Below, piece by piece: positions 17,467-32,212 of a stretch of DNA of 41,815 nt. The stretch comes from Anaerolinea sp. (GTDB lineage Bacteria; Chloroflexota; Anaerolineae; Anaerolineales; Anaerolineaceae). The notes below the pieces were generated by a model, which did no database searches, was not told the origin of the DNA, and saw only the letters and a program-made list of their open reading frames with translations. The stretch is from positions 1-41,815 of the forward strand of contig DYEC01000015.1 of NCBI GenBank assembly GCA_020725865.1. The letters are read 5' to 3'. Within the stretch, counting starts at the first letter, position 1; each line of letters begins with the position of its first letter. The translations under genes were made by a program, and so were the position numbers.

Positions 17467-18939
17467 ATGAAACAAAATGATCAGTCCAGTGGGATAACCA
17501 TTCTGGGTTTAGGACCCGGTAATCCGCAGCATCTCACCCGTTCGGCATGGGAGTGGCTCAACCAAATTACCGAAGTATATCTACGGACAATTCATCATCC
17601 GCTTGTTTCAGCTCTCCCATCTGGTTTGAAAGTACTTTCATTTGACGAATTCTATGAGCAGAATGAGACCTTTGAGAGAGTATATCAACAAATTGTGGAG
17701 AAAGTGCTGGAGTTGGGCCAAAGCTCATCAGGGGTAACGTATGCGGTGCCTGGACATCCATTTGTTGCCGAAGCGACCTGCCCGGAAATTGTGCGCAGGG
17801 CAGAGGCATTGGGTATCCCCGTGCAGGTGATTGAGGGATTGAGTTTTCTCGAACCAACTTTTACCGCTTTGGGAGTGGATCCTTTCCCCCAAATGACACT
17901 GGTGGATGCCCTGGAGCTTGGTACGGCTTATCATCCGACATTTCCGCCATCAGTTCCGGTGCTGATTACACAGATTTATTCGCGTGAGGTTGCTGCGAAT
18001 GTCAAACTGACGTTGAACGAAGTGTATCCTGATAACTATCTGGTGCGTCTGGTGCATGCCGCGGGAACGGAGCATCAAGTTGTGGAAGATTTACCACTAT
18101 ATGAAATTGACCGTAGCTCGCGAATAGGTTTGCTTACGACATTGTACCTTCCGGCGATGGAGAAGGAAACCTCGTTTGAGGAATTTCAGGCACTCATTGC
18201 TCACCTGCGTTCACCGGAAGGTTGCCCCTGGGATCGCGAACAAACCCATCAGACTTTGCGCACTAATTTGTTGGAGGAATCTTATGAGGTGCTGACGGCA
18301 CTGGATGCTGATGATCCGGCAGCATTGTGTGAGGAGCTTGGGGATTTGATGCTTCAAATCGTCTTGCATGCGCAGATTGCCTCTGAGTTAGGAGAATTTA
18401 AGATGACGGATGTACTGGCAGGGATTCACCACAAGATCGTTCGCCGTCATCCGCATGTATTTGGAGAATTGAAGCTTGATAGCTCAGATCGAGTAGTGCG
18501 CAACTGGGAAGCGTTAAAGGCTGCGGAGCGACGAGCGAACGGCGAGAATGAGATCAAGGGTTTACTTGAAGGTGTATCAAAAGCGTTGCCGGCACTAGCA
18601 CAAGCGCAGGCTTATCAGGCACGTGCGGCGCGTGTTGGGTTCGACTGGCACGAGATAGCTCCGGTGGTCGAAAAGGTGCGCGAAGAGCTGGATGAATTGC
18701 TCCATGCCGGTGATGGAAACGAACGTGAGGATGAGCTGGGTGACTTGTTATTTGCGGTGGTCAACTTGGCGCGTTGGTACAAGGTGGACGCCGAGTCAGC
18801 GTTGCGTAGGACGAATGAACGATTTTACAGGCGGTTTAAGTACATTGAAGAGAAAGCCCGACAGAGCGGTCGCGATTTGCACCAGATGAGCCTTGAGGAA
18901 ATGGACGTACTTTGGGAGGAAGCGAAGGGATTGGAATAA
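17467..18939 (+). CDS. mazG: Fused SAM-methylase-like and MazG nucleotide pyrophosphohydrolase
   Basis: MazG hydrolyses nucleoside triphosphates to monophosphates and diphosphate, cleaning the pool of damaged nucleotides. The 490-residue product has an N-terminal tetrapyrrole-methylase-like half (about 1-225; ITILGLGPGNPQHLT and VTYAVPGHPFVAE), as in YabN of Bacillus. The MazG half follows from about residue 235: LRSPEGCPWDREQTHQTLR, with metal-site motifs EESYEV and EELGDL, repeated in degenerate form as EELDEL and EDELGDL. No clear ribosome site precedes ATG 17467. The methylase half's substrate is unknown. Confidence 0.92.
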   Translation: MKQNDQSSGITILGLGPGNPQHLTRSAWEWLNQITEVYLRTIHHPLVSALPSGLKVLSFDEFYEQNETFERVYQQIVEKVLELGQSSSGVTYAVPGHPFVAEATCPEIVRRAEALGIPVQVIEGLSFLEPTFTALGVDPFPQMTLVDALELGTAYHPTFPPSVPVLITQIYSREVAANVKLTLNEVYPDNYLVRLVHAAGTEHQVVEDLPLYEIDRSSRIGLLTTLYLPAMEKETSFEEFQALIAHLRSPEGCPWDREQTHQTLRTNLLEESYEVLTALDADDPAALCEELGDLMLQIVLHAQIASELGEFKMTDVLAGIHHKIVRRHPHVFGELKLDSSDRVVRNWEALKAAERRANGENEIKGLLEGVSKALPALAQAQAYQARAARVGFDWHEIAPVVEKVREELDELLHAGDGNEREDELGDLLFAVVNLARWYKVDAESALRRTNERFYRRFKYIEEKARQSGRDLHQMSLEEMDVLWEEAKGLE

Positions 18940-19260: not shown

Positions 19261-20787
19261 ATGAGCAAGCGACCGGGGTGGTGGCAGGGAATGAATAATG
19301 AAGTAGCGCCGATATGCCTGCTTTTACTTCTTATTATGGGCTGCATTCCGGGATCGGTGAAGCCTCTGATTGTTGAGACTCCCATGACTATTGTGTTTAC
19401 CGAGATGCCGGTGGTCACGCCATTGTCACCGCCCGCAAGTCCGGGTGCTGTTACACCGACAAGTATGCCAACCGTGGTTTTAAACATGATGCCCACGTTG
19501 ATACCTGTACCGCCAATGGGGGCATACTTTGTTGCTCCCACGGGTAATGATGCTAACCTTGGAACGATAGATCAGCCTTGGCAAACGATCCAAAAAGCCG
19601 CCGATACTCTCACTGCAGGTAGTATCGTTTATATTCGCTCGGGAATATACCACGAACGAATCATTGCTAAAAATTCTGGAAACCCAGGTAACGAAATTAC
19701 ATATGCAGCCTACCCGGGTGAAACCGCCACGATTGATGGAGACAGCATCATTTTGCCAGATGACCTTGCTGGTCTTTTTGAGATTGAGGATAAAAGCTAT
19801 ATTCGTATCATGGGTTTACGCTTAATCAATTCTGGACCCTTTGCTAATAACACAGCGATTTTGGTTAAGGGTTCAAATCACATTACTATTGAAAACAGTG
19901 TAACCTTCAATACAATGTCGTCAGGCATTGGTGTTTGGGATAGCCAAAATATCATTGTAGCTGGTAATACAATCGAAGCGGGAGGCGTTGGTGGTGGTCA
20001 AGAATGCATTACCATAGCTGGCACCACTCGCTTTGAGGTCCGGGACAATACTGTGGTAGATTGCCAAAAAGAGGGCATAGATGCCAAAGATGGATCGTCT
20101 CATGGGTTACTCTATCGAAATGTAGTCAATCGTCCGCGCGCTGTAGGGATATACATTGATGCTTGGGACAAAGCAACGCATGACATTGAAGTCTCTCAAA
20201 ACGTTGTATTCAACTCAAGAGAGAGTTCGGGATTTACAATTGCATCAGAGCAAGGAGGTTTTTTATCACACATCCGGCTTGAAAACAATATTGCGTATCA
20301 CAATCGTACTTACGGCATAGAAATTTCGCGCTGTTGCACGGATAATCATCCAATGGATACCATCTTTGTTGTAAATAACACTCTTTATGAAAACGGGGGA
20401 GATTGGGGCGGAGGTATCCTTGTTGATAATGCTCAAGCGCGAAATGTCGTTATTCGCAATAATGTGTGTAGCCAGAACCTGAATTTCCAAATTGCCATCG
20501 CTGCTGATGTTCCAACGCACAATGTATTGGTGGATCACAACATGATTGACGGATATCGTGGTTATGAAGACGAGGTATACGGCAACGATTATAGACTGGG
20601 TGATCCACAATTTGAGGACCCCGCGCATGGAAATTTTGGTCTTCGCCGCGGTTCGCAGGCTGTAGATGCTGGATCTGCTATTGGCGCTCCTGATGTGGAC
20701 TTTGAAGGCAATGTACGGCCGCTGGACGGGGATGGCGATGGAAATGTGCTATTCGATATTGGAGCAGATGAACTGTCATTGGAGTAG
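19261..20787 (+). CDS. Predicted lipoprotein with right-handed parallel beta-helix
   Basis: The 508-residue product starts with a basic stretch, a hydrophobic segment and a lipobox ending IMGC (C28), so it is probably exported and lipid-anchored. A proline/threonine-rich linker of about 60 residues follows. From about residue 87 the sequence is that of a pectate-lyase-like beta-helix: YFVAPTGNDANLGTIDQPWQ, then many short N-rich strands such as NHITIENSVTFN and VVFNSRESSGF. It ends with the common cap DVDFEGNVRPLDGDGDGN. Such proteins bind or cleave polysaccharides; no catalytic site is recognised, so activity is unknown. It shares N-terminal style with the protein at 21182. Confidence 0.8.
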   Translation: MSKRPGWWQGMNNEVAPICLLLLLIMGCIPGSVKPLIVETPMTIVFTEMPVVTPLSPPASPGAVTPTSMPTVVLNMMPTLIPVPPMGAYFVAPTGNDANLGTIDQPWQTIQKAADTLTAGSIVYIRSGIYHERIIAKNSGNPGNEITYAAYPGETATIDGDSIILPDDLAGLFEIEDKSYIRIMGLRLINSGPFANNTAILVKGSNHITIENSVTFNTMSSGIGVWDSQNIIVAGNTIEAGGVGGGQECITIAGTTRFEVRDNTVVDCQKEGIDAKDGSSHGLLYRNVVNRPRAVGIYIDAWDKATHDIEVSQNVVFNSRESSGFTIASEQGGFLSHIRLENNIAYHNRTYGIEISRCCTDNHPMDTIFVVNNTLYENGGDWGGGILVDNAQARNVVIRNNVCSQNLNFQIAIAADVPTHNVLVDHNMIDGYRGYEDEVYGNDYRLGDPQFEDPAHGNFGLRRGSQAVDAGSAIGAPDVDFEGNVRPLDGDGDGNVLFDIGADELSLE

Positions 20788-23124: not shown

Positions 23125-23481
23125 ATGCTGGCTGATTGGTTATACATCGGCATTTTTTTGATCATTTCCTTGTTTTTACCCTCAGTAGCCCTCATTGTAG
23201 CAGGTATCCTTGGGCCCAAGAAACCGAATCCCGTAAAAAACTCAACGTATGAATGTGGGGTAGAAACTTTCGGGGAAAGTCTGACACAATTCAAGGTTCA
23301 ATACTATCTTTATGCGCTGGTTTTTCTTGTTTTTGACGTGGAAGCAATTTTTCTGTATCCTTGGGCAGTTGCTTATCAAGTACAGACAGTCTTCTATGTT
23401 GTAGAAGCGATCATCTTTGTTCTTATTTTACTATTCGCATTGTGGTATGCCTGGCGCAAGGGTGCACTTGAATGGGTTTAG
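23125..23481 (+). CDS. nuoA: NADH-quinone oxidoreductase subunit A
   Basis: NuoA is a three-helix membrane subunit of complex I next to the quinone site. The product is 118 residues, normal length, with GPKKPNPVKNSTYECGVETF in the loop after helix 1 and the family-typical FLVFDVEAIFLYPWAV in helix 2. It heads a cluster of only membrane-arm genes; nuoB does not follow, and nuoH comes next after 22 bp. Confidence 0.95.
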   Translation: MLADWLYIGIFLIISLFLPSVALIVAGILGPKKPNPVKNSTYECGVETFGESLTQFKVQYYLYALVFLVFDVEAIFLYPWAVAYQVQTVFYVVEAIIFVLILLFALWYAWRKGALEWV

Positions 23482-23503: not shown

Positions 23504-24736
23504 GTGAGCTTCTGGGTAGACCCTTACCGTTTTCTTTTGGAATGGTTACGCAATCTGCTGATCGGGTGGGGGTTGCCAGCTGACTGGGCGCAGGTTGTCC
23601 TTTTTTTTGTGGGGGCATTTGCTTTAGGTACGGCAGCTCTTTTGCTTGTTGTTTTTCTGATCTGGCTCGAGCGCAAAGTTGTAGGGCGTATCCAGGATCG
23701 TTTAGGACCTAATCGAGTTGGGCCTTGGGGGATTTTCCAGACAATAGCAGATATTGGCAAGATTTTCACAAAAGAATTTATCACTCCTGTAGGAGTAGAT
23801 TGGTTGTTATATAATCTGGCGCCGGTTCTTTCGGTGGGTGCAGTGCTGATGCTCTGGGCAGTGATTCCATTGACAATGACCCTGTATGGTGTCAATTTGA
23901 ATGTGGCAGTGCTCTATATCATTGCGGTTGGCGAGTTGGGGGAAATGGCGGTTATTCTGGCTGGTTGGGGCTCAAATAATAAGTATGCTGTTCTGGCGGC
24001 CTTTCGCGCGGTGGCGCAGTTAATTTCGTATGAAGTCCCATTAATTGTGACCCTGTTGTTGCCGGTGATGTTTGCCGGTTCGATGGGGTTGAATGATATT
24101 GTGCAGGCACAGTCGGTCTGGTTTATTTTTCTGGCACCTGTGACGGCTCTAATATTCTTCATTGTCAGCATTGCCGAAGTCGGGCGTGCACCGTTCGACC
24201 TTGTAGAAGCTGAGTCAGAGCTGGTTTCGGGATTTAATATTGAGTATTCTGGATTGAAGTTTGGATTTTTCTTTGTGGCAGATTTTCTTCATGCCTTTAC
24301 TATTGCGCTGCTATTTGCAACATTGTTTTTGGGTGGCTGGCGCGGCCCGGGTGCAATCCAGTATCCCGTGCTGGGGTTTGTTTATCTGATGATTAAAACC
24401 AGTGTTGTATATTTCATTGTCATCCTTTTGCGTGCCTCGCTTCCGCGTTTCCGTATTGATCAAATGATGAACCTGAACTGGAAACTGCTGACACCACTTT
24501 CGATGACTATGCTGGTTTTGACTGCCTTGCTGGATAAGCTCCTTCCTTCATCCCCGCTATTTGTTCGGATTGTTGGAATGGTGGTGATGAATGTGCTTGT
24601 TCTGCTTATCCTCAATCAAATTCTGAAGCTCGTCGAAAACCGTCGTCCACGCCCGGTAGTTGCGCCTGTAGTACGCCCGGTGGCGCGCCCACCACAAATC
24701 TCCTCTGTGCAAAATGGATCAGGGACATCCTCATGA
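23504..24736 (+). CDS. nuoH: NADH-quinone oxidoreductase subunit H
   Basis: NuoH links the quinone chamber to the proton-pumping arm. The 410-residue product shows RIQDRLGPNRVGPWGIFQTI, IADIGKIFTKE, and the charged loop EVGRAPFDLVEAESELVSGF followed by NIEYSGLKFG, all diagnostic. Start GTG 23504 lies behind CTGGAGG. The last 30 residues are a proline/arginine-rich tail (RPRPVVAPVVRPVARPP) beyond the usual end. The stop overlaps nuoJ by 4 bp. Confidence 0.96.
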   Translation: MSFWVDPYRFLLEWLRNLLIGWGLPADWAQVVLFFVGAFALGTAALLLVVFLIWLERKVVGRIQDRLGPNRVGPWGIFQTIADIGKIFTKEFITPVGVDWLLYNLAPVLSVGAVLMLWAVIPLTMTLYGVNLNVAVLYIIAVGELGEMAVILAGWGSNNKYAVLAAFRAVAQLISYEVPLIVTLLLPVMFAGSMGLNDIVQAQSVWFIFLAPVTALIFFIVSIAEVGRAPFDLVEAESELVSGFNIEYSGLKFGFFFVADFLHAFTIALLFATLFLGGWRGPGAIQYPVLGFVYLMIKTSVVYFIVILLRASLPRFRIDQMMNLNWKLLTPLSMTMLVLTALLDKLLPSSPLFVRIVGMVVMNVLVLLILNQILKLVENRRPRPVVAPVVRPVARPPQISSVQNGSGTSS

Positions 24737-25254
24737 GTGGGACACAGTTTATCTTCTTGGTTACTGCGGGTGTTACGCTTGCAGCGGCGGTAATGACCGT
24801 CAGTGCCCGCAAAATGATGCATGCCGCGTTGTGGCTGGTGCTGGCTTTGACAGGGGTGGCAGTTCTGTTCGCGTTACTTCGGTCAAGCTTTTTTGCCGTG
24901 GTGCAGGTGCTTGTTTATATCGGCGCGATTGCCATCCTGATTATTTTTTCAGTAATGTTAACCCGTCGTGTTGTACAGGAGCAACGCCCCAGAGTTAATC
25001 GCTTGTGGTGGGTGGCTGCCCTGCTGGCGTTGATGTTATTCACAGGTCTTGTGGCGACGCTGGCCAGTTGGAATGGACTTTATCCCACTGGGCAGGCGGT
25101 CGCTGGGCATCCGGAAGATATTGGAGCTCTTGGGCTGGCATTGGTTGATCCTGCTGGCTTTGTTATCCCATTTGAGGTGGCTTCTCTATTATTGCTGGCG
25201 GCACTGGTTGGCGCTGTTTTTATTGCGCTAGAGCGGAAAGGAGGCATGCAATGA
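24733..25254 (+). CDS. nuoJ: NADH-quinone oxidoreductase subunit J
   Basis: NuoJ is a membrane subunit beside NuoK and NuoH. The 173-residue product has five hydrophobic helices, with the family motif region ALLRSSFFAVVQVLVYIGAI (helix 3, whose pi-bulge change is part of coupling) followed by AILIIFSVMLTRR. It overlaps nuoH and nuoK by 4 bp each. No nuoI precedes it, unlike in most nuo operons. Confidence 0.94.
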   Translation: MSGTQFIFLVTAGVTLAAAVMTVSARKMMHAALWLVLALTGVAVLFALLRSSFFAVVQVLVYIGAIAILIIFSVMLTRRVVQEQRPRVNRLWWVAALLALMLFTGLVATLASWNGLYPTGQAVAGHPEDIGALGLALVDPAGFVIPFEVASLLLLAALVGAVFIALERKGGMQ

Positions 25255-25559
25255 TTCCACTTTCGTGGTATTTGATTTTCGCTGCCCTTTTATTTTGTGT
25301 GGGTTTATACGGTGTATTGGCGCGCCGCAATGCAATTGGCATTATGATGGGGGTGGAGTTGATGTTGAACGCGGTGAATATCAATCTGCTTGCGTTTTGG
25401 AGCTATCTTTATGCGGACCGTTTAAATGGTCTGGTGTTTGTTGCCATAGTTTTTGTGGCTGCAGCGGCTGAAGCAGCGGTCGGTCTGGCGTTGATTATTT
25501 CTGCTTATCGCCGGCGCAATACAGTGATTGCTGAAGAGCTCACTATGCTCAAGGGTTGA
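25251..25559 (+). CDS. nuoK: NADH-quinone oxidoreductase subunit K
   Basis: NuoK is a small three-helix subunit with two membrane glutamates needed for proton movement. The 102-residue product has both in context: MGVELMLNAVNINLLAF and VAAAEAAVGLALI. Length is normal for the family. The start overlaps nuoJ by 4 bp; nuoL follows 13 bp on. Confidence 0.95.
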   Translation: MIPLSWYLIFAALLFCVGLYGVLARRNAIGIMMGVELMLNAVNINLLAFWSYLYADRLNGLVFVAIVFVAAAAEAAVGLALIISAYRRRNTVIAEELTMLKG

Positions 25560-25572
25560 TTCCGGAGGTAGG

Positions 25573-27753
25573 ATGACGATAGAAACCCTGATATGGTTAA
25601 TTCCGCTTCCACCAGTTCTGGCTTTCTTTCTGATAGCTGTTTTTGCTTTTAGAAACCGCTCGCTCAGCCATTCGCTTGCGGTAGGCTCAGCAGTGATTTC
25701 CTGGGCTGTGAGTATGGTGGTCTTTTATCAGGCAGTCACTACGCCGGCGTTCAACCATCACCCGTTTGTTTCGCAAATTAACTGGTTGCCCTTAGGACAG
25801 GGCTGGTTTCGCATTGGTGTACAGGTTGATCCACTGGCAGCCGTAACCTTGTTTTTCGTTGCTTGGACGATTTTGATGATTTTCATCTATAGTGTTGGGT
25901 ATCATAATTACGGACAGCCGATTGGCGAACACGACCGTCCCGGGCTGCAACCCCATGGGGCGAGTGTAACCGGGGCAGATGGTAAGGTCACACGTGTTCC
26001 TTCTGTTGAACCGATGTATGCCCGTTTTTTTGCTTTTATTGCCTTATTCGCTTTTGGGATGTATGCGCTGGTGGTGACGGATAATCTCCTGACGCTCTAT
26101 ATGGCGTGGGAAATTATGGGGTTGTGTTCTTATCTGCTGATTGGTTTCTGGTATGGAAAACCTTCGGCAAGGGATGCAGCGGTTAAGGCTTTTTTGACCA
26201 CGCGTGTTGGCGATATGTTTATGTTGCTGGGACTGGTAGCATTATACTGGTTAACTGGTACGCTTAATTACCGTCTGATTCTTTCCAATCCTGGTGTTCT
26301 GGAACAACTGTCTGAGGCAACATCACCGGTTTTGGGATTGTCTTGGGCGGGGCTGGTAGGCTTACTCATCTTTTTTGGGACGGTGGGAAAGTCCGCTCAA
26401 TTTCCATTGCATGTCTGGCTGCCGGATGCAATGGAAGGTCCAACCCCGGTTTCAGCAATGATCCATGCAGCAACGATGGTCTCAGCGGGAGTGTATCTGG
26501 CGTTGCGTTTCTTTCCGCTTATTTCCGCTGGCTGGACACCGGGCAGCGCGTTGACACCGACTCTGATGGTCATGGCAGCGATTGGCGCGTTTTCTGCTTT
26601 GTTTGCCGCATCCATTGCGCTGGCACAGCGGGATATTAAGCGTGTGCTAGCATATTCGACCATTTCTCAACTGGCTTACATGGTGGCAGCTCTAGGGGTT
26701 GGGGCATATGTTGCGGCGGCATTTCACCTAGTGACACACGCGTTTTTCAAGGCTTTGCTCTTTTTAGGTTCTGGATCGGTCATTCATGGAATGGAACACG
26801 GTGTGTTGCATACTGGCGAGCATATTGACCCGCAGGATATGTTCAACATGGGCGGGTTAAGAAAGAAAATGCCGGTTACGTTCTGGACGTTTCTAATTGG
26901 TGGTCTGGCGCTTTCTGGTTTTCCACTGGTGACTGCGGGCTTTTGGTCAAAAGACGAAATTCTATCTGGCGCGCTGGATGGCGGCTATACAGTTGTCTTT
27001 GTCATTCTGGCATTTTCAGCTTTGCTGACTGCGTTTTACACTGCCCGCCAGATAACGCTGACCTTTCTTGGACAACCACGCACAGGTTCGGCAGAGCATG
27101 CACACGAATCAAAGCCAGTGATGACATTACCGCTGGTCGGATTGGCTGTTTTTGCTGTAGCTGTAGGCTGGGCAGGTATTCCAGAAGATTTTCCGATTTT
27201 AGGGGGATTGTTGCCAAACTGGTTTGAGCACTTCGTTGGCAGTATGCTGGCGGGACATGGTGAGGGGAGACTTGTTGGGCATAGCTCGCTCCCGCTGATT
27301 ATATCGCTGATTGTGGCGCCGCTTGGTTTGGGGTTGGGCTGGTGGGTTTACCGAGCTGTTCCGGCAAAGGCTGCTGACCCATTGCAGTATGTTCTGGGTC
27401 CGGTTTATCCACTTTTGAAAAACAAATATTATGTTGATGAGTTATATAAGTGGATTTTCATCCGTCCGGCAGTGTGGCTGGCTGATGTCTTCACCGTGCA
27501 GTGGGTAGATCATAACGTAATTGACGGGATTGTGGATGGCATTGGGCGGCTTGGGCTTTGGCTGGGGCGTGTTTTCAGCCGGTATTTTGATATCCCTGTC
27601 ATTACAGGCACCGGCGATATGATAGCGTTTGGGACGCGTAAGCTGGGTATCAGCTTGAAATGGATCCAAAGCGGAAGGGTGCAGCAATATATGATTTTGG
27701 CGATAGCAGTGATGGTCATACTCGGCGGAACACTGTATTTTCTTCTGGCATAA
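25573..27753 (+). CDS. nuoL: NADH-quinone oxidoreductase subunit L with extended lateral helix
   Basis: NuoL is the distal antiporter-like proton pump of complex I and bears the long lateral helix along the arm. The 726-residue product is over 100 residues longer than the E. coli protein as I recall it. Key residues are in place: E180 (MAWEIMG), K273 (GTVGKSAQFP) and K in FWSKDEIL. Two enlargements stand out: a hydrophilic insert at about 112-147 before MYARFFAF, and a lateral-helix region of about 82 residues between LYK and QQY instead of about 50-55. The latter contains a 27-residue tandem duplication (645-671, 672-698). ATG 25573 follows CCGGAGGT; an earlier frame opening at 25528 is inside nuoK. 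Confidence 0.95.
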   Translation: MTIETLIWLIPLPPVLAFFLIAVFAFRNRSLSHSLAVGSAVISWAVSMVVFYQAVTTPAFNHHPFVSQINWLPLGQGWFRIGVQVDPLAAVTLFFVAWTILMIFIYSVGYHNYGQPIGEHDRPGLQPHGASVTGADGKVTRVPSVEPMYARFFAFIALFAFGMYALVVTDNLLTLYMAWEIMGLCSYLLIGFWYGKPSARDAAVKAFLTTRVGDMFMLLGLVALYWLTGTLNYRLILSNPGVLEQLSEATSPVLGLSWAGLVGLLIFFGTVGKSAQFPLHVWLPDAMEGPTPVSAMIHAATMVSAGVYLALRFFPLISAGWTPGSALTPTLMVMAAIGAFSALFAASIALAQRDIKRVLAYSTISQLAYMVAALGVGAYVAAAFHLVTHAFFKALLFLGSGSVIHGMEHGVLHTGEHIDPQDMFNMGGLRKKMPVTFWTFLIGGLALSGFPLVTAGFWSKDEILSGALDGGYTVVFVILAFSALLTAFYTARQITLTFLGQPRTGSAEHAHESKPVMTLPLVGLAVFAVAVGWAGIPEDFPILGGLLPNWFEHFVGSMLAGHGEGRLVGHSSLPLIISLIVAPLGLGLGWWVYRAVPAKAADPLQYVLGPVYPLLKNKYYVDELYKWIFIRPAVWLADVFTVQWVDHNVIDGIVDGIGRLGLWLGRVFSRYFDIPVITGTGDMIAFGTRKLGISLKWIQSGRVQQYMILAIAVMVILGGTLYFLLA
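27505..27666 (+). repeat. 27-residue tandem duplication in the NuoL lateral helix
   Basis: Residues 645-671 begin VDHNVIDGIVDGIGRLGLWL and residues 672-698 begin FDIPVITGTGDMIAFGTRKL. Aligned without gaps they share D2, V5, I6, G8, D11, I13 and further similar positions. DNA identity is low, so the duplication is old. Its size equals the excess length of this region. Confidence 0.55.
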
Positions 27754-27762
27754 GGTGCGTAG

Positions 27763-29274
27763 ATGAATCTCATCAGCGAGCATTTGCTTTCTTTTATTTT
27801 GTTTGTGCCGGTTTTGACGGCGCTGATGTTGCTCTTCGTGCCATCAGGTCGGTTATCTTTATTGCGCTGGGGGACTTTGATTGCCAGCCTGATACCGTTT
27901 GGACTGGCTGTAGCACTTTGGGTAAGGTTTGATCCTCAACAGGGTGGCTTTCAGTTTGAGGAATATCTACGATGGTATCCGCCGCTCAATTCGGCTTATC
28001 ATCTTGGTGTGGATGGCATTTCACTGACACTGGTTTTGTTGACAACTTTTCTGACGCCGTTGGCGATTCTGGCTTCATTCAGTATTACTGACCGCGTAAA
28101 GGCTTATATGGTTCTGTTTCTGCTTTTGGAAACGGGTATGTTGGGGGTCTTTCTGGCGCTGGATCTGCTTTTGTTCTTTGTTTTCTGGGAAGTGGGCTTG
28201 GTACCGATGTACTTTCTGATCAACCAATGGGGCGGTACAAACCGTAACTATGCTTCCTTGAAATTTATTTTGTACACGATGGGCGGGTCGTTGGGATTGC
28301 TGCTCGCTTCTCAATTAATCGGAGTGGTTGCCGGCACCTATGACATTCCGGAACTAATTTCTATCTGGCCTTCTTTCAGCTCGGGGGAGCTGATTGGGCT
28401 TCCGGTGGCAACAGTTAAGGCGATCGCTTTTTGGGCTTTTGTGATCGCTTTTGCGGTCAAAGTTCCGGTCTGGCCTTTTCACACCTGGCTGCCGGACGCA
28501 CACACAGAAGCGCCCACTGCCGGCTCGATGATACTGGCAGGCGTTTTGCTTAAGCTGGGTGCCTATGGTTTTTTACGTCTGGTGCTGCCATTATATCCGG
28601 CGGAGGCGCGTTTATATGGCGGCTGGCTGGCTGCTTTTGCGACACTGGCGATTATTTTGGGCGCTCTGGGTGCTTTTGGGCAGACTGATTTCAAACGCTT
28701 GGTGGCATATTCTTCAATTAACCATATGGGATTTGTGGTTTTGGGAGTTGCAGTTGCTGCCTGGGCTACAGGCACCATTGACTCTATCATTGCGGTCAAT
28801 GGCGCTGTGTTGCAAATGGTGACACATGGGCTGTCCTCAGCGGGGATGTTTTTCCTGGTTGGGGTGATTTATGAGCGCACGCACAGCCGCAATTTGAATG
28901 ATTTTGGTGGTTTATATGCAGTTTTGCCAGTTTATGGGAGTATTCTGGTCTTCACGGCGATGGCGTCGCTGGGTTTGCCCGGCTTGGGCGGTTTTATCTC
29001 CGAAGTGCTGGTTGTGCGGGGTGCCTGGCCTGTATTTCCGCTGGCAACGGCGCTCAGCACAATAGGGTTGTTTTTCACTGGTGCGTATGTCCTGAAGTCA
29101 CTGCGTTTGGCGCTGCATGGCCCTCTCAATGAGCGCTGGTTAGGAAAACTAAGTGAAATCAATCCCCGTGAGCTGGTGGTTATTACACCTTTGATGGTCT
29201 TATTGCTGGTGATTGGAATCTGGCCAGCCTGGTTGCTTGGGCTGATTAATCGAGCCGTAAGTATGTGGTTCTAA
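27763..29274 (+). CDS. nuoM: NADH-quinone oxidoreductase subunit M (first copy)
   Basis: NuoM is an antiporter-like proton pump between NuoN and NuoL. The 503-residue product has the standard ion-path residues almost at E. coli numbering: E143 (FFVFWEVGLVPMYFL), K233 (AFAVKVPVWPFHTWLPDAHT), K264 (AGVLLKLGAYGFLR) and E414 (GGFISEVLV). It is 9 bp after nuoL and 10 bp before a second, divergent NuoM. Confidence 0.95.
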   Translation: MNLISEHLLSFILFVPVLTALMLLFVPSGRLSLLRWGTLIASLIPFGLAVALWVRFDPQQGGFQFEEYLRWYPPLNSAYHLGVDGISLTLVLLTTFLTPLAILASFSITDRVKAYMVLFLLLETGMLGVFLALDLLLFFVFWEVGLVPMYFLINQWGGTNRNYASLKFILYTMGGSLGLLLASQLIGVVAGTYDIPELISIWPSFSSGELIGLPVATVKAIAFWAFVIAFAVKVPVWPFHTWLPDAHTEAPTAGSMILAGVLLKLGAYGFLRLVLPLYPAEARLYGGWLAAFATLAIILGALGAFGQTDFKRLVAYSSINHMGFVVLGVAVAAWATGTIDSIIAVNGAVLQMVTHGLSSAGMFFLVGVIYERTHSRNLNDFGGLYAVLPVYGSILVFTAMASLGLPGLGGFISEVLVVRGAWPVFPLATALSTIGLFFTGAYVLKSLRLALHGPLNERWLGKLSEINPRELVVITPLMVLLLVIGIWPAWLLGLINRAVSMWF

Positions 29275-29284
29275 GAGGTGAGGA

Positions 29285-30754
29285 ATGCAATTTCCCTGGC
29301 TAAGCCTGCTTATCTTTACCCCATTGATTGCCGGGCTGGTCATTCTGGCATTGCCAGCAGGGCGGCGCGACTGGATTCGCGGTGTGGCGGTAATTGCTGC
29401 CAGTCTGGATTTGCTTATGTCGTTGCTGGTGTATTTCCGCTATGATGCAACTGTTGGTGATTATCAGTTTATTGAACGTGTTCCCTGGGTACCGCAACTG
29501 GGGATTTCCTACTATGTCGGTGTGGACGGTTTCAGCCTGCCGCTGGTGTTGCTGGGAAGTGTGGTGGTTTTTTGCGGGGTGTTGATCTCATGGCGAATTG
29601 AAGATCGTCCACGTGAGTTTTTTGCTTTCCTGATGTTTCTGGGTACAAGTGTGCTGGGTGTTTTTTGCTCGCTGGATTTGTTTCAATTATTCTTCTTTTT
29701 CGAACTGGCGGTTTTTCCCAAGTACCTGATGATCATCCTTTGGGGATATCCGAAGACGCGCGAATATGGCGGTATGAAACTGACCCTGTATCTGTTTGCT
29801 GGATCAGTAATTGCATTGGTTGGTGCGCTAGCGATTTACTTTGGTTCCGGGTTGCGCACATTTGACATGCTGGCGCTGGAAAAAGCTGGTTTTCCGCTCT
29901 GGTTTCAGCAATTCTGGTTTCCTTTTGTATTTCTGGGTTTTGCTGTTCTAGGCGGCATCTTTCCGTTTTACAGCTGGGCGCCCGATGGTCATGTGGCTGC
30001 GCCCACGGCGGTTTCGATGTTGTTGGCGGGTGTGGAGATGAAGGTGGGTGCGTTTTCAGCCCTGCGTGCCGGCATTATGTTATTGCCAGAGGGAGCACGC
30101 TACTGGGCAGTCTGGATTTTGGTATTGGCTACGGTAAATGTGGTGTATGGCGCATTTCTGGCAATGACGCAGACTGATTTTAAGTATGTAATTGGTTTTT
30201 CTTCTGTTTCTCACATGGGACTGGTGTTGATTGGTTTTGCCACGCTTTCTTCCCAAGGTCTGCTGGGGGCGGGAATGCAGATGTTTTCACATGGCATCAT
30301 GACGGCGATGTTTTTTGCTGTCGTCGGGATGGTGTATGATCGAACACACATCCGGGAAATCTCCCGACTGGGTGGATTGTTTAATAAAATGCCCTGGGCA
30401 GGGATTGGGTTTGTTATTGCTGGTCTGGTTTCGATGGGAATGCCGGGTTTCTCCGGCTTTGTTGCAGAGTTCCCGGTTTTTATGGGTGCCTGGCGGGCAC
30501 TGCCATTAGTGGCAGTAATTGCGGTCATTGGAATTCTAGTAACCGCAGGGTATATTCTGCTGGTTCTACGGCGGGTCTTTTTTGGCAAATTGCCGGACTT
30601 TGGTGAGCATGTACCGGATGTTAGCATGCTGGACAAAATTGCTATCGGGCTGCTTGGTTTTCTGATGGTGGTTTTAGGATGGTTCCCGTCCTTGCTATCC
30701 ACGGTAGTGCAATCGGGCGTGGATCGCATTCTTGTATTGTTGGGAGGTGGCTAA
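29285..30754 (+). CDS. nuoM2: NADH-quinone oxidoreductase subunit M, second divergent copy
   Basis: This 489-residue protein aligns with NuoM along its length and would be a further antiporter-like subunit. E140 (FFFFELAVFPKYLM), K253 (AGVEMKVGAFSALR) and E395 (SGFVAEFPVF) are kept. The TM7 lysine is not: FAVLGGIFPFYSWAPDGH stands where the first copy has FAVKVPVWPFHTWLPDAH, so L222 replaces it. GAGGTGAGG precedes the ATG. Paired with the long NuoL helix, it fits a complex I with two M subunits. The symbol nuoM2 is descriptive. Confidence 0.9.
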   Translation: MQFPWLSLLIFTPLIAGLVILALPAGRRDWIRGVAVIAASLDLLMSLLVYFRYDATVGDYQFIERVPWVPQLGISYYVGVDGFSLPLVLLGSVVVFCGVLISWRIEDRPREFFAFLMFLGTSVLGVFCSLDLFQLFFFFELAVFPKYLMIILWGYPKTREYGGMKLTLYLFAGSVIALVGALAIYFGSGLRTFDMLALEKAGFPLWFQQFWFPFVFLGFAVLGGIFPFYSWAPDGHVAAPTAVSMLLAGVEMKVGAFSALRAGIMLLPEGARYWAVWILVLATVNVVYGAFLAMTQTDFKYVIGFSSVSHMGLVLIGFATLSSQGLLGAGMQMFSHGIMTAMFFAVVGMVYDRTHIREISRLGGLFNKMPWAGIGFVIAGLVSMGMPGFSGFVAEFPVFMGAWRALPLVAVIAVIGILVTAGYILLVLRRVFFGKLPDFGEHVPDVSMLDKIAIGLLGFLMVVLGWFPSLLSTVVQSGVDRILVLLGGG

Positions 30755-30757
30755 ATC

Positions 30758-32212
30758 ATGACGGCTGATTTTGCGACCATGCTCTCGGCGGTTTTTCCCG
30801 AAATTGGTCTGGTGGTGTTAATGGTAGTCGTGCTGGGGTTGGACTTACTTTGGCGCGACGAGCGGGTGCGTCGTTTGGGTTGGATAACTGCGGCAGGTTG
30901 CCTCTTTCTGGTAGTGTTGAGTCTGGTTTTTGCGCTCCCGCCAGCTGAACCGCTTTTGATCTGGGGCGGGATGTTGCGATTGGATGCAGCGGGTTTTGTA
31001 TTTCGCATCGTATTTCTTTTGGGGGCTGCCTTGACCGCATTGTTCTCTCTTGGGCAGGATGATCTCCAGAAACATGGAGAGTATTATGGTTTGATGTTGG
31101 TCAGTACACTGGGGATGAGCCTGATGGCTTCGGCAGCGGATTTGATTATGCTGTATCTGGCGATTGAACTCACTTCTATTCCGTTGTATGTACTGGCTGG
31201 ATTTCGCTTCCGAGATGACAAATCGGTGGAAGCAGGCATCAAGTACCTTTTATTTGGCGCGATGACTTCTGCAGTGATGTTATACGGTTTAAGCCTGTTA
31301 TACGGTTTTAGTGGGACCACACAAATTGCCGAACTGGCTGAACAGATTGATCGCCATTCTGTGCCGGTGTCTTTGTTGGTTATATCTCTGGTGTTGGTGC
31401 TGGTTGGGTTTGGTTTTAAGGTCTCTGCAGTGCCGTTTCACTTTTGGGCACCTGATGTATATGAGGGAGCGCCCACGCCAGTCGCCGGATATCTTTCCAC
31501 TGCCTCGAAGGCTGCTGGTTTCGCTGTGCTAATGCGAGTTATACTGACGGGCTTTTGGGCAGTAACGCCAATCTGGATGGATTTGATAGCGGGATTGGCA
31601 ATTGTGAGTATGACCGTTGGTAATTTGCTGGCACTTACACAAACCAATATTAAACGTCTACTGGCGTATTCTTCGATTGCACAGGCTGGGTATATTCTGG
31701 TGGGTGTGGCAGCCGGTACATCATTTGGGATGAGCGGCGCAGTGTATTATCTTATGGCTTATTTGCTGACCAATCTGGTAGCTTTTGGGGTCGTCTCTGT
31801 GGTGGGTCAACGCGTTGGGTCAGATGATCTGTCTGCTTATGCCGGATTGAGCCGGCGGGCGCCGGCTGTGGCGCTGATTTTGCTGATCAGCATGCTTTCG
31901 TTGGGTGGCATTCCGCCCTTTGCTGGTTTTGTTGGCAAGGTGCTGGTATTTGCAGCGGCAGTAGAAGCCGGACGATGGTGGCTGGCGCTGATAGGTGTAA
32001 TCAATTCAATTGTGGCGCTATACTATTATCTGATTGTTTTGAAGAGCGCCTACTTGCTTCGTTCAGAGGATGAGCAGAAGCCGCTCCAGTTAATGGCCGG
32101 ATGGCGAGTGGCATTGCTGGTTTGTGTTACGGGTGTGTTGGTGTTAGGTGTAGTGATTGCGCCATGGTTTGAGTGGGCTGGCAAGGCTGGTTGGGCTCTC
32201 TCGATTTATTGA
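30758..32212 (+). CDS. nuoN: NADH-quinone oxidoreductase subunit N
   Basis: NuoN is the antiporter-like subunit nearest the quinone-binding end. The 484-residue product keeps a glutamate in YLAIELTSIPLYVLAGFR, the TM7 lysine in VGFGFKVSAVPFHFWAPDVY, the TM8 lysine in STASKAAGF and the TM12 lysine in AGFVGKVLVF. GGGAGGTGG at the end of the previous gene is the ribosome site; three bases separate the genes. It ends the nuo cluster. Confidence 0.95.
   Translation: MTADFATMLSAVFPEIGLVVLMVVVLGLDLLWRDERVRRLGWITAAGCLFLVVLSLVFALPPAEPLLIWGGMLRLDAAGFVFRIVFLLGAALTALFSLGQDDLQKHGEYYGLMLVSTLGMSLMASAADLIMLYLAIELTSIPLYVLAGFRFRDDKSVEAGIKYLLFGAMTSAVMLYGLSLLYGFSGTTQIAELAEQIDRHSVPVSLLVISLVLVLVGFGFKVSAVPFHFWAPDVYEGAPTPVAGYLSTASKAAGFAVLMRVILTGFWAVTPIWMDLIAGLAIVSMTVGNLLALTQTNIKRLLAYSSIAQAGYILVGVAAGTSFGMSGAVYYLMAYLLTNLVAFGVVSVVGQRVGSDDLSAYAGLSRRAPAVALILLISMLSLGGIPPFAGFVGKVLVFAAAVEAGRWWLALIGVINSIVALYYYLIVLKSAYLLRSEDEQKPLQLMAGWRVALLVCVTGVLVLGVVIAPWFEWAGKAGWALSIY

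Follow-up and report, generated by a model that had tools for sequence, protein, structure and literature searches.

Does a second NuoM add a further full pump to complex I, and what does the lengthened lateral helix of NuoL span in such a complex? These questions are raised by a stretch of 41,815 nucleotides from Anaerolinea sp. (assembly GCA_020725865.1, contig DYEC01000015.1; here called the window), where two adjacent nuoM genes follow a nuoL gene that encodes a long lateral helix. As read from its sequence, the window encodes the membrane arm of the two-NuoM (2M) complex I of Chloroflexota, a kind already published. This agrees with the preliminary description of the window, since the gene order, the family scores and the separate nuoB-nuoCD-nuoI genes are all in accord with the reports on Chloroflexi. 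The operon itself belongs to a known kind, and the points that deserve attention lie at the level of the family: the step in helix size, best explained by tandem duplication, the long helix that is present without a second NuoM, and the second NuoM that lacks a lysine. It is noted that the idea of bacteria tuning proton pumping through added subunits has one of its foremost examples in the 2M complex I. If the second NuoM is regularly without the ion-pair lysine, it offers a natural test of how essential the pair is, and the one-NuoM operons with the full long helix, some of which come from genomes in one contig that contain a single NuoM gene, lead to the question of what the extra helix unit spans.

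The lateral helix and its extra unit

The NuoL of the window (726 residues; nuoL at 25573..27753, + strand; 565.7 bits to TIGR01974, over the cut-off) compares with the E. coli and Thermus NuoL chains at a structural Z of about 46. Its LYK lies at residues 624-626 and its QQY at residues 704-706, with 77 residues in between, against 49 residues between the same anchors in the NuoL of a one-NuoM operon of the same genome (contig C9, locus L009). The preliminary description had counted 82 residues here; the long helix stands, with the number corrected to 77. AlphaFold2 predicts residues 618-698 (27424..27666, + strand) to form one continuous helix of 81 residues, the mean pLDDT (the per-residue confidence score) being 84.3 and the ten-residue means being 60-88 within the helix. 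The helix had also been described as containing a gapless repeat of 27 residues, with unit 1 at residues 645-671 (VDHNVIDG..., 27505..27585, + strand) and unit 2 at residues 672-698 (FDIPVITG..., 27586..27666, + strand). The two units share 8 of 27 residues and 34 of 81 bases, and their BLOSUM62 score comes to +3; each is weak in the window sequence alone, and the repeat becomes clear only at the level of the family.

At that level, the added residues are best explained as a tandem repeat of one unit of about 26-28 residues, which would have arisen by duplication of one helical segment. For 76 non-redundant long helices the mean self-score is highest at offset 26 (-0.34), followed by offsets 22 (-0.69) and 27 (-0.73), with the lowest value being -1.24. 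Taken singly, 52 of the 76 long helices score best at offset 26 or 27, versus 9 of 71 short ones. In alignments with hhalign of the profile of the short helices against three profiles of long ones, a single gap of 26 columns was opened and was placed differently between runs, as tandem duplication predicts. Residues 605-622 of the solved cyanobacterial NdhF (6hum_F) match the helix of one long NuoL (L077) twice, at positions 26 residues apart (independent E-values 3.8e-08 and 0.021), and fresh-looking copies of the unit are present in several loci, with identities of 18/28 in L248, 16/34 in L213, 12/19 in L203 and 12/24 in L229. The common motif D..VIDGxVNGxG occurs once in the short helices and twice in many of the long ones. 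With the offset peak, the shifting gap, the double match of NdhF and the fresh-looking copies, the earlier claim that the longer helix came from duplicating one helix segment is supported for the family. Among the solved NuoL chains none matched both helix units, the matches at the sensitivity of phmmer being to single-unit stretches. As a separate observation, the NuoL of a one-NuoM operon of Chloroflexota (L047) has 85 residues between the anchors and carries the near-identical motifs FDRNIVDGLVN and IDRNIVDGLVN.

The step in helix size has, as is best supported, been gained or lost several times. On a NuoL tree of 109 rows, which was computed without the helix by a quick method (LG+G4) that makes the exact number of events unreliable, helix length changes 10 times, with 6 of the changes forced by starred branches. 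A single origin of the long helix was rejected on this tree, where one clade of long types gives p = 2e-57 in the approximately unbiased test (p-AU). An earlier tree of 80 rows required 2 changes, and a single clade of short types was not rejected there (p-AU 0.327). It is also noted that two one-NuoM loci from the same order as the window genome, L242 and L243, have 79 residues, and that L242 is the tree sister of the short L009 of the window's own genome, which points to an independent gain of about 30 residues, the units matching poorly.

The survey comprised 80 related loci, the second operon of the window's own genome, and samples of Chloroflexota and of the phyla of the KSB1 genome G008, the Bacteroidetes genome G010, the Nitrospirae genome G210 and the Actinomycetes genome G013. 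A usable NuoL frame was present in 249 of 251 loci (L040 and L141 being without one), or 250 with the window, and the length between LYK and QQY was measured on C-terminal pieces of NuoL. Four frames cut by contig ends (L024, L169, L179 and L197) gave void lengths, leaving 246, of which 117 have 45-50 residues, 128 have 73-85 residues and one (L211) has 32; because the 80 loci were chosen by likeness to the NuoL of the window and many regions were picked as long-looking, the sample is biased and these proportions are not natural frequencies. The NuoL with 32 residues, from a one-NuoM operon of genome G334 in the phylum sample of G013, looks as if the repeat region of the helix had been lost.

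After identical proteins had been removed, 233 NuoLs were left, the four cut ones included. The distinct short-type NuoLs of 45-50 residues number 112, of which 39 come from one-NuoM operons and 73 have too little flank to give an order. Among the distinct long-helix NuoLs, 57 belong to one-NuoM operons and 49 to two-NuoM operons (the window included; in L014 and L034 nuoN lies outside the sequence at hand), nine give no order, and one (L204) has no nuoM before nuoN. As far as the covered stretch shows, the long-helix nuoL of L204 is succeeded by nuoN without an intervening nuoM. The long helix is present in 49 of 49 two-NuoM operons, and two NuoMs are present in none of the 39 short-helix operons with determined order; L198, which had appeared to be a short-helix operon with two NuoMs, was rejected as such, its two frames being one frame-broken NuoM. 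The preliminary description had implied a one-to-one link between the long helix and the second NuoM, and had named equally long helices in single-NuoM operons as what would speak against it. Such helices are present in 57 of the 97 one-NuoM operons with determined order, and the one-to-one link is not supported.

Among the long operons with determined order, one NuoM is present in 11 of 11 of the KSB1 type, 9 of 9 of the Bacteroidota type and 12 of 13 of the Actinomycetota type, the remaining one being L204. A second NuoM located elsewhere in a genome with a one-NuoM long-helix operon was rejected: when 21 such genomes were searched throughout with NuoM1, none gave more than two NuoM-type matches over 200 bits. 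The two matches found in most of the 21 probably represent two complex I operons in each genome. G016 and G018 have a single NuoM-type match and contiguous nuoL-M-N, and a single NuoM-type gene is likewise present in five one-contig genomes of family f11 and in G266, with helices of 74 (G016, locus L077), 75 (G018, locus L090), 79 (the five f11 genomes) and 74 residues (G266). In G087, L, M and N are the only matches at E 1e-15, and G017 has one NuoM-type match and a fragment. G019 and G020, with one match each, were left uncounted because a contig end truncates their long-helix operon, the match in G019 lying on another contig. Ten mapped one-NuoM neighbourhoods contained no extra antiporter-like frame, an observation that is silent on copy number. 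For the one-NuoM L077, AlphaFold2 also predicts a continuous helix, at residues 579-653, with a mean pLDDT of 80.3 and values of only 44-57 from residue 631 onwards. The puzzle is partly in print already, as PMC9040806 reports lateral-helix insertions in Complex_I_1 and I_2 of 'Ca. Manganitrophaceae' and calls these complexes similar to canonical forms. Since the long helix also occurs in one-NuoM operons, it is by itself no proof of an arm with four antiporters.

Two kinds of NuoM in one operon

The genes nuoM1 (503 residues; 27763..29274, + strand) and nuoM2 (489 residues; 29285..30754, + strand) both score over the cut-off of TIGR01972, with 519.1 and 448.5 bits, and lie 10 bases apart, as the preliminary description had it. 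Their proteins are 35% identical. The key residues named for E. coli NuoM in PMC9271201, E144, K234, K265, H322 and E407, were transferred to the two proteins by position and motif. NuoM1 keeps all of them, as Glu143 in transmembrane helix 5 (TM5, the other helices being named likewise), Lys233 in TM7 (codon AAA, 28459..28461, + strand), Lys264 in TM8, His321, and Glu414 in TM12. NuoM2 keeps the TM5 glutamate, the TM8 lysine, the histidine and the TM12 glutamate, with Leu222 (codon CTA, 29948..29950, + strand) in place of the TM7 lysine that forms the ion pair. Judged by these residues, NuoM2 lacks the TM5 Glu-TM7 Lys pair of an ordinary pump and has the central TM8 lysine, the bridging histidine and the distal TM12 glutamate.

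The same division runs through the family. In the two-NuoM operons, 49 of 49 first NuoMs have the TM7 lysine and 48 of 48 scored second NuoMs lack it (Leu in 39, Ile in 8, Thr in 1; the cut second NuoM of L014 was left out of the scoring), and in all 48 pairs the member without the lysine is the second one counted from nuoL. The second NuoMs keep the TM5 glutamate, the TM12 glutamate and the histidine in 48 of 48 cases each and the TM8 lysine in 45 of 48. In one-NuoM operons the TM7 lysine is found in 57 of 57 NuoMs beside a long helix and in 32 of 38 beside a short one, the other six having Leu. We found no report of the missing TM7 lysine, or of the repeat origin of the helix, in the open-licence literature, a scope outside which the founding work of Chadwick et al. 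(2018) lies. As far as these searches reach, and with that work excluded, the lysine-less second NuoM across the family is new.

A NuoM tree of 98 rows, computed by a quick method, explains the lysine trait with a single change. The 18 non-redundant second NuoMs all fall into one clade together with 5 sole NuoMs from Bacillota, Spirochaetota and a Verrucomicrobiota genome, and the change is read as a loss of the lysine because NuoL and NuoN have a matching lysine according to PMC9271201. The first NuoMs as one clade were rejected (p-AU 0.00039, on a chosen subset of 48 rows and with a simpler model), the lone representative of the Nitrospirota type (L182) falling elsewhere, on another branch than the first NuoM of the window. 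By these relations NuoM2 is a distinct type of NuoM and not a fresh copy of NuoM1. Since the second NuoMs form a separate clade and the first ones do not form a single clade, the second NuoM probably came, on two or more occasions, from an ancient lineage without the lysine and was not copied from its neighbour.

The wider distribution of the lysine-less type was followed with NuoM2 as the query in two further phylum samples of 30 loci each, a query that favours lysine-less matches. In the phylum of G213 (Desulfoscipio; 101 genomes, 34 matched at E 1e-60), 29 NuoMs are lysine-less (28 Leu, 1 Gln) and every one of them accompanies a short helix; the single lysine-type NuoM stands beside a long helix. 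In the phylum of G211 (Acidobacteriaceae; 40 genomes, 34 matched at E 1e-45), the lysine-type NuoMs comprise 12 beside a long helix (in L312 and L313 nuoN lies outside the sequence at hand), 10 beside a short one and 4 with no helix in reach; one lysine-less NuoM stands beside a short helix, and three loci have two NuoMs, with lysine in the first and Leu in the second. Identical NuoMs were counted once (L278 = L079, L305 = L055, L309 = L046, L295 = L294, L303 = L302). In the pooled distinct proteins, all 32 lysine-less sole NuoMs, most of them from the Bacillota-type sample, stand beside a short helix, and one-NuoM long-helix operons have a lysine-type NuoM in 70 of 70 (two without nuoN in view), these being cases that share descent and are not independent. 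The NuoM of the single-NuoM complex I of the Bacillota type is in the same clade as NuoM2 of the window and is likewise without the TM7 lysine; this complex differs from that of the window in its short lateral helix and in having no lysine-type NuoM in the operon. As many Bacillota-type operons have no NuoM other than a lysine-less one, a loss of function of NuoM2 does not follow, and the lysine may be dispensable in that lineage. The earlier claim of a four-antiporter arm is kept for the genes, L, M1, M2 and N all being present; the four need not be equal pumps, because M2 is without the TM7 lysine and falls into a separate clade.

Possible working of the arm and its alternatives

We consider it probable, taken as a whole, that the window encodes a 2M membrane arm with a helix lengthened by duplication of a segment, in which M2, having no ion pair, may act as a relay with altered gating. 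The arm would contain four antiporter-like subunits, L, M1, M2 and N, which from the gene order would be arranged as N-M2-M1-L, and the longer lateral helix would brace both NuoMs. M1 may act as an ordinary NuoM pump. M2, with its central lysine, histidine and distal glutamate but no Glu-Lys pair, may pass charge along the arm with altered gating. In this arrangement M2 might or might not translocate a proton itself; the pumping of a complete fifth proton would be possible and is not implied.

Several points weigh against the favoured reading, beginning with the duplication. The mean self-score of the 71 short helices also has its top at offset 26, marginally (-0.725 versus -0.732 at 19), and since these helices contain one unit, a small part of the offset-26 peak is not due to duplication. 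When the short motif is matched to unit 2 as a second, separate hit, the result is poor (probability 0.2%, E 0.26), and there is little likeness between the two units in the window and in 2M NuoLs of the Nitrospira type. By itself the repeat of the window is not clearly significant: at offset 27 the best stretch of 27 residues scores 10, which 40 of 5000 shuffles reach, and with a free offset the best score is 12, at offset 31, which 35 of 500 shuffles reach, while the self-score over the whole helix has its top at offset 36 and not 27. Taken alone, the window sequence does no more than hint at the duplication. As for the arm, M2 is placed by gene order, sole NuoMs without the TM7 lysine exist (the 32 distinct proteins given above), and the long helix is present in 57 of the 97 one-NuoM operons, with eight genomes in all combining it with contiguous nuoL-M-N and one NuoM-type gene.

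The published reading takes M2 as a full fourth pump that gives a fifth proton per reaction cycle. Papers citing Chadwick et al. (2018) repeat the fifth-proton hypothesis, M2 keeps the other key residues at the counts given above, and the lysine-less type, being the only NuoM of its operon in 32 distinct cases, probably works. But the ion pair E144/K234 of E. coli NuoM, which is part of the gating scheme proposed in PMC9271201, cannot form in M2, and no measured proton stoichiometry of a 2M complex was found in the open-licence literature. We regard this reading as possible while leaning against it, and because the second NuoM is a distinct type without the TM7 lysine, the assumed fifth proton needs measurement. 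The helix may also be unrelated to the number of antiporters, reaching an extra docking site or partner, with the two-NuoM operons having arisen in lineages that were already long. The one-NuoM operons with a long helix, which include nearly all the determined long operons of the KSB1, Bacteroidota and Actinomycetota types, the eight genomes with a single NuoM-type gene, and G087 with only its L, M and N, would all be accounted for in this way. However, it is then hard to place the long helix of every two-NuoM operon and the lack of a second NuoM in every determined short one, as well as a size step that is near-constant, like a ruler; we think this explanation unlikely, though it is to be reckoned with.

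There is another possibility, which we hold to be quite unlikely: the one-NuoM long-helix complexes would contain two copies of the same NuoM side by side, and the 2M operons would have swapped the copy adjacent to NuoN for a lysine-less NuoM. It is consistent with the helix being about one unit longer in both the one- and the two-NuoM class, with the continuous helix predicted in one member of each class (the far half of L077 at low confidence), and with the NuoM of one-NuoM long-helix operons being of the lysine type in 70 of 70; set against it are the ten mapped one-NuoM neighbourhoods, which are without an extra antiporter-like frame but silent on copy number. Extended to the whole family, the conjecture would be that the lateral helix measures about 25-26 residues per antiporter, that one-NuoM long arms contain two same NuoMs, that the NuoN-side copy was later replaced, at least twice, by a lysine-less NuoM of a separate lineage, and that the extra slot is a specialised charge relay and not an ordinary fourth pump; we judge it distinctly improbable in this full form. 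That the extra helix residues are an unrelated insertion is highly improbable. It would fit the scarcely similar units of the window and of the Nitrospira-type 2M NuoLs and the marginal offset-26 top of the short helices, but it is opposed by the best offset of 26 or 27 in 52 of 76 long versus 9 of 71 short helices, the shifting profile gap, the double match of NdhF and the fresh-looking copies.

The operon, its genome and related systems

The source genome has 3.1 Mb in 26 contigs, with the window on contig C13, and the nearest relatives of the window NuoL are of the Anaerolineae-type Chloroflexota. On the + strand the gene order is nuoA-nuoH-nuoJ-nuoK-nuoL-nuoM1-nuoM2-nuoN. Ahead of nuoL lie nuoA (118 residues, 23125..23481, matching the NCBIfam NuoA models under their equivalog cut-offs), nuoH (410 residues, 23504..24736, NF004741, over the cut-off), nuoJ (173 residues, 24733..25254, matching NCBIfam NuoJ models under the cut-offs) and nuoK (102 residues, 25251..25559, NF004320, over the cut-off); behind nuoM2 lies nuoN (484 residues, 30758..32212, TIGR01770, 420.1 bits, over the cut-off), all on the + strand. 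Genes for the hydrophilic core stand in a row on contig C10 (locus L266): nuoB (227 residues), a fused nuoCD (593 residues) and nuoI (197 residues), CD being assigned by PF00346 and B and I by eye.

This arrangement is that of the Chloroflexi 2M complex I described by Chadwick et al. (2018), as represented by citing papers, and in PMC7117926, where nuoLM1M2N is reported for cultured Chloroflexi, together with a fused nuoCD and a nuoBCDI set that lies apart. The window is like it in the extra nuoM between nuoL and nuoN, in the separate nuoBCDI, in the fused nuoCD and in the lengthened NuoL helix, and no tested feature differs. Chloroflexus aggregans has a two-nuoM cluster, nuoABCDHJKLMMN (PMC8004040), with nuoBCD inside the cluster, unlike the window. 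The 2M complex I of Nitrospira and Complex_I_1 to I_3 of 'Ca. Manganitrophaceae' (PMC9040806, PMC6606698) resemble the window in possessing one more NuoM and a helix insertion of about 26 residues. The canonical complex I, represented by the second complex I operon of the same genome on contig C9, has homologous L, M and N and differs from the window by its one NuoM and its lateral helix of 49 versus 77 residues.

Two more antiporter-like clusters are present in the same genome, on contigs C25 (L010) and C17 (L011); one of them has NuoH-like and NuoD-like matches and is read as hydrogenase-like, and the other is Mrp-like by size. In the window, frames identified by eye as those of an ATP synthase lie downstream of the nuo operon. 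Also identified by eye are a frame of 490 residues at 17467-18939, with an N-terminal tetrapyrrole-methylase-like and a C-terminal MazG-like domain, and, upstream of the nuo operon at 19261-20787, a frame of 508 residues that starts like a lipoprotein and shows a repeat pattern like that of a right-handed beta-helix.

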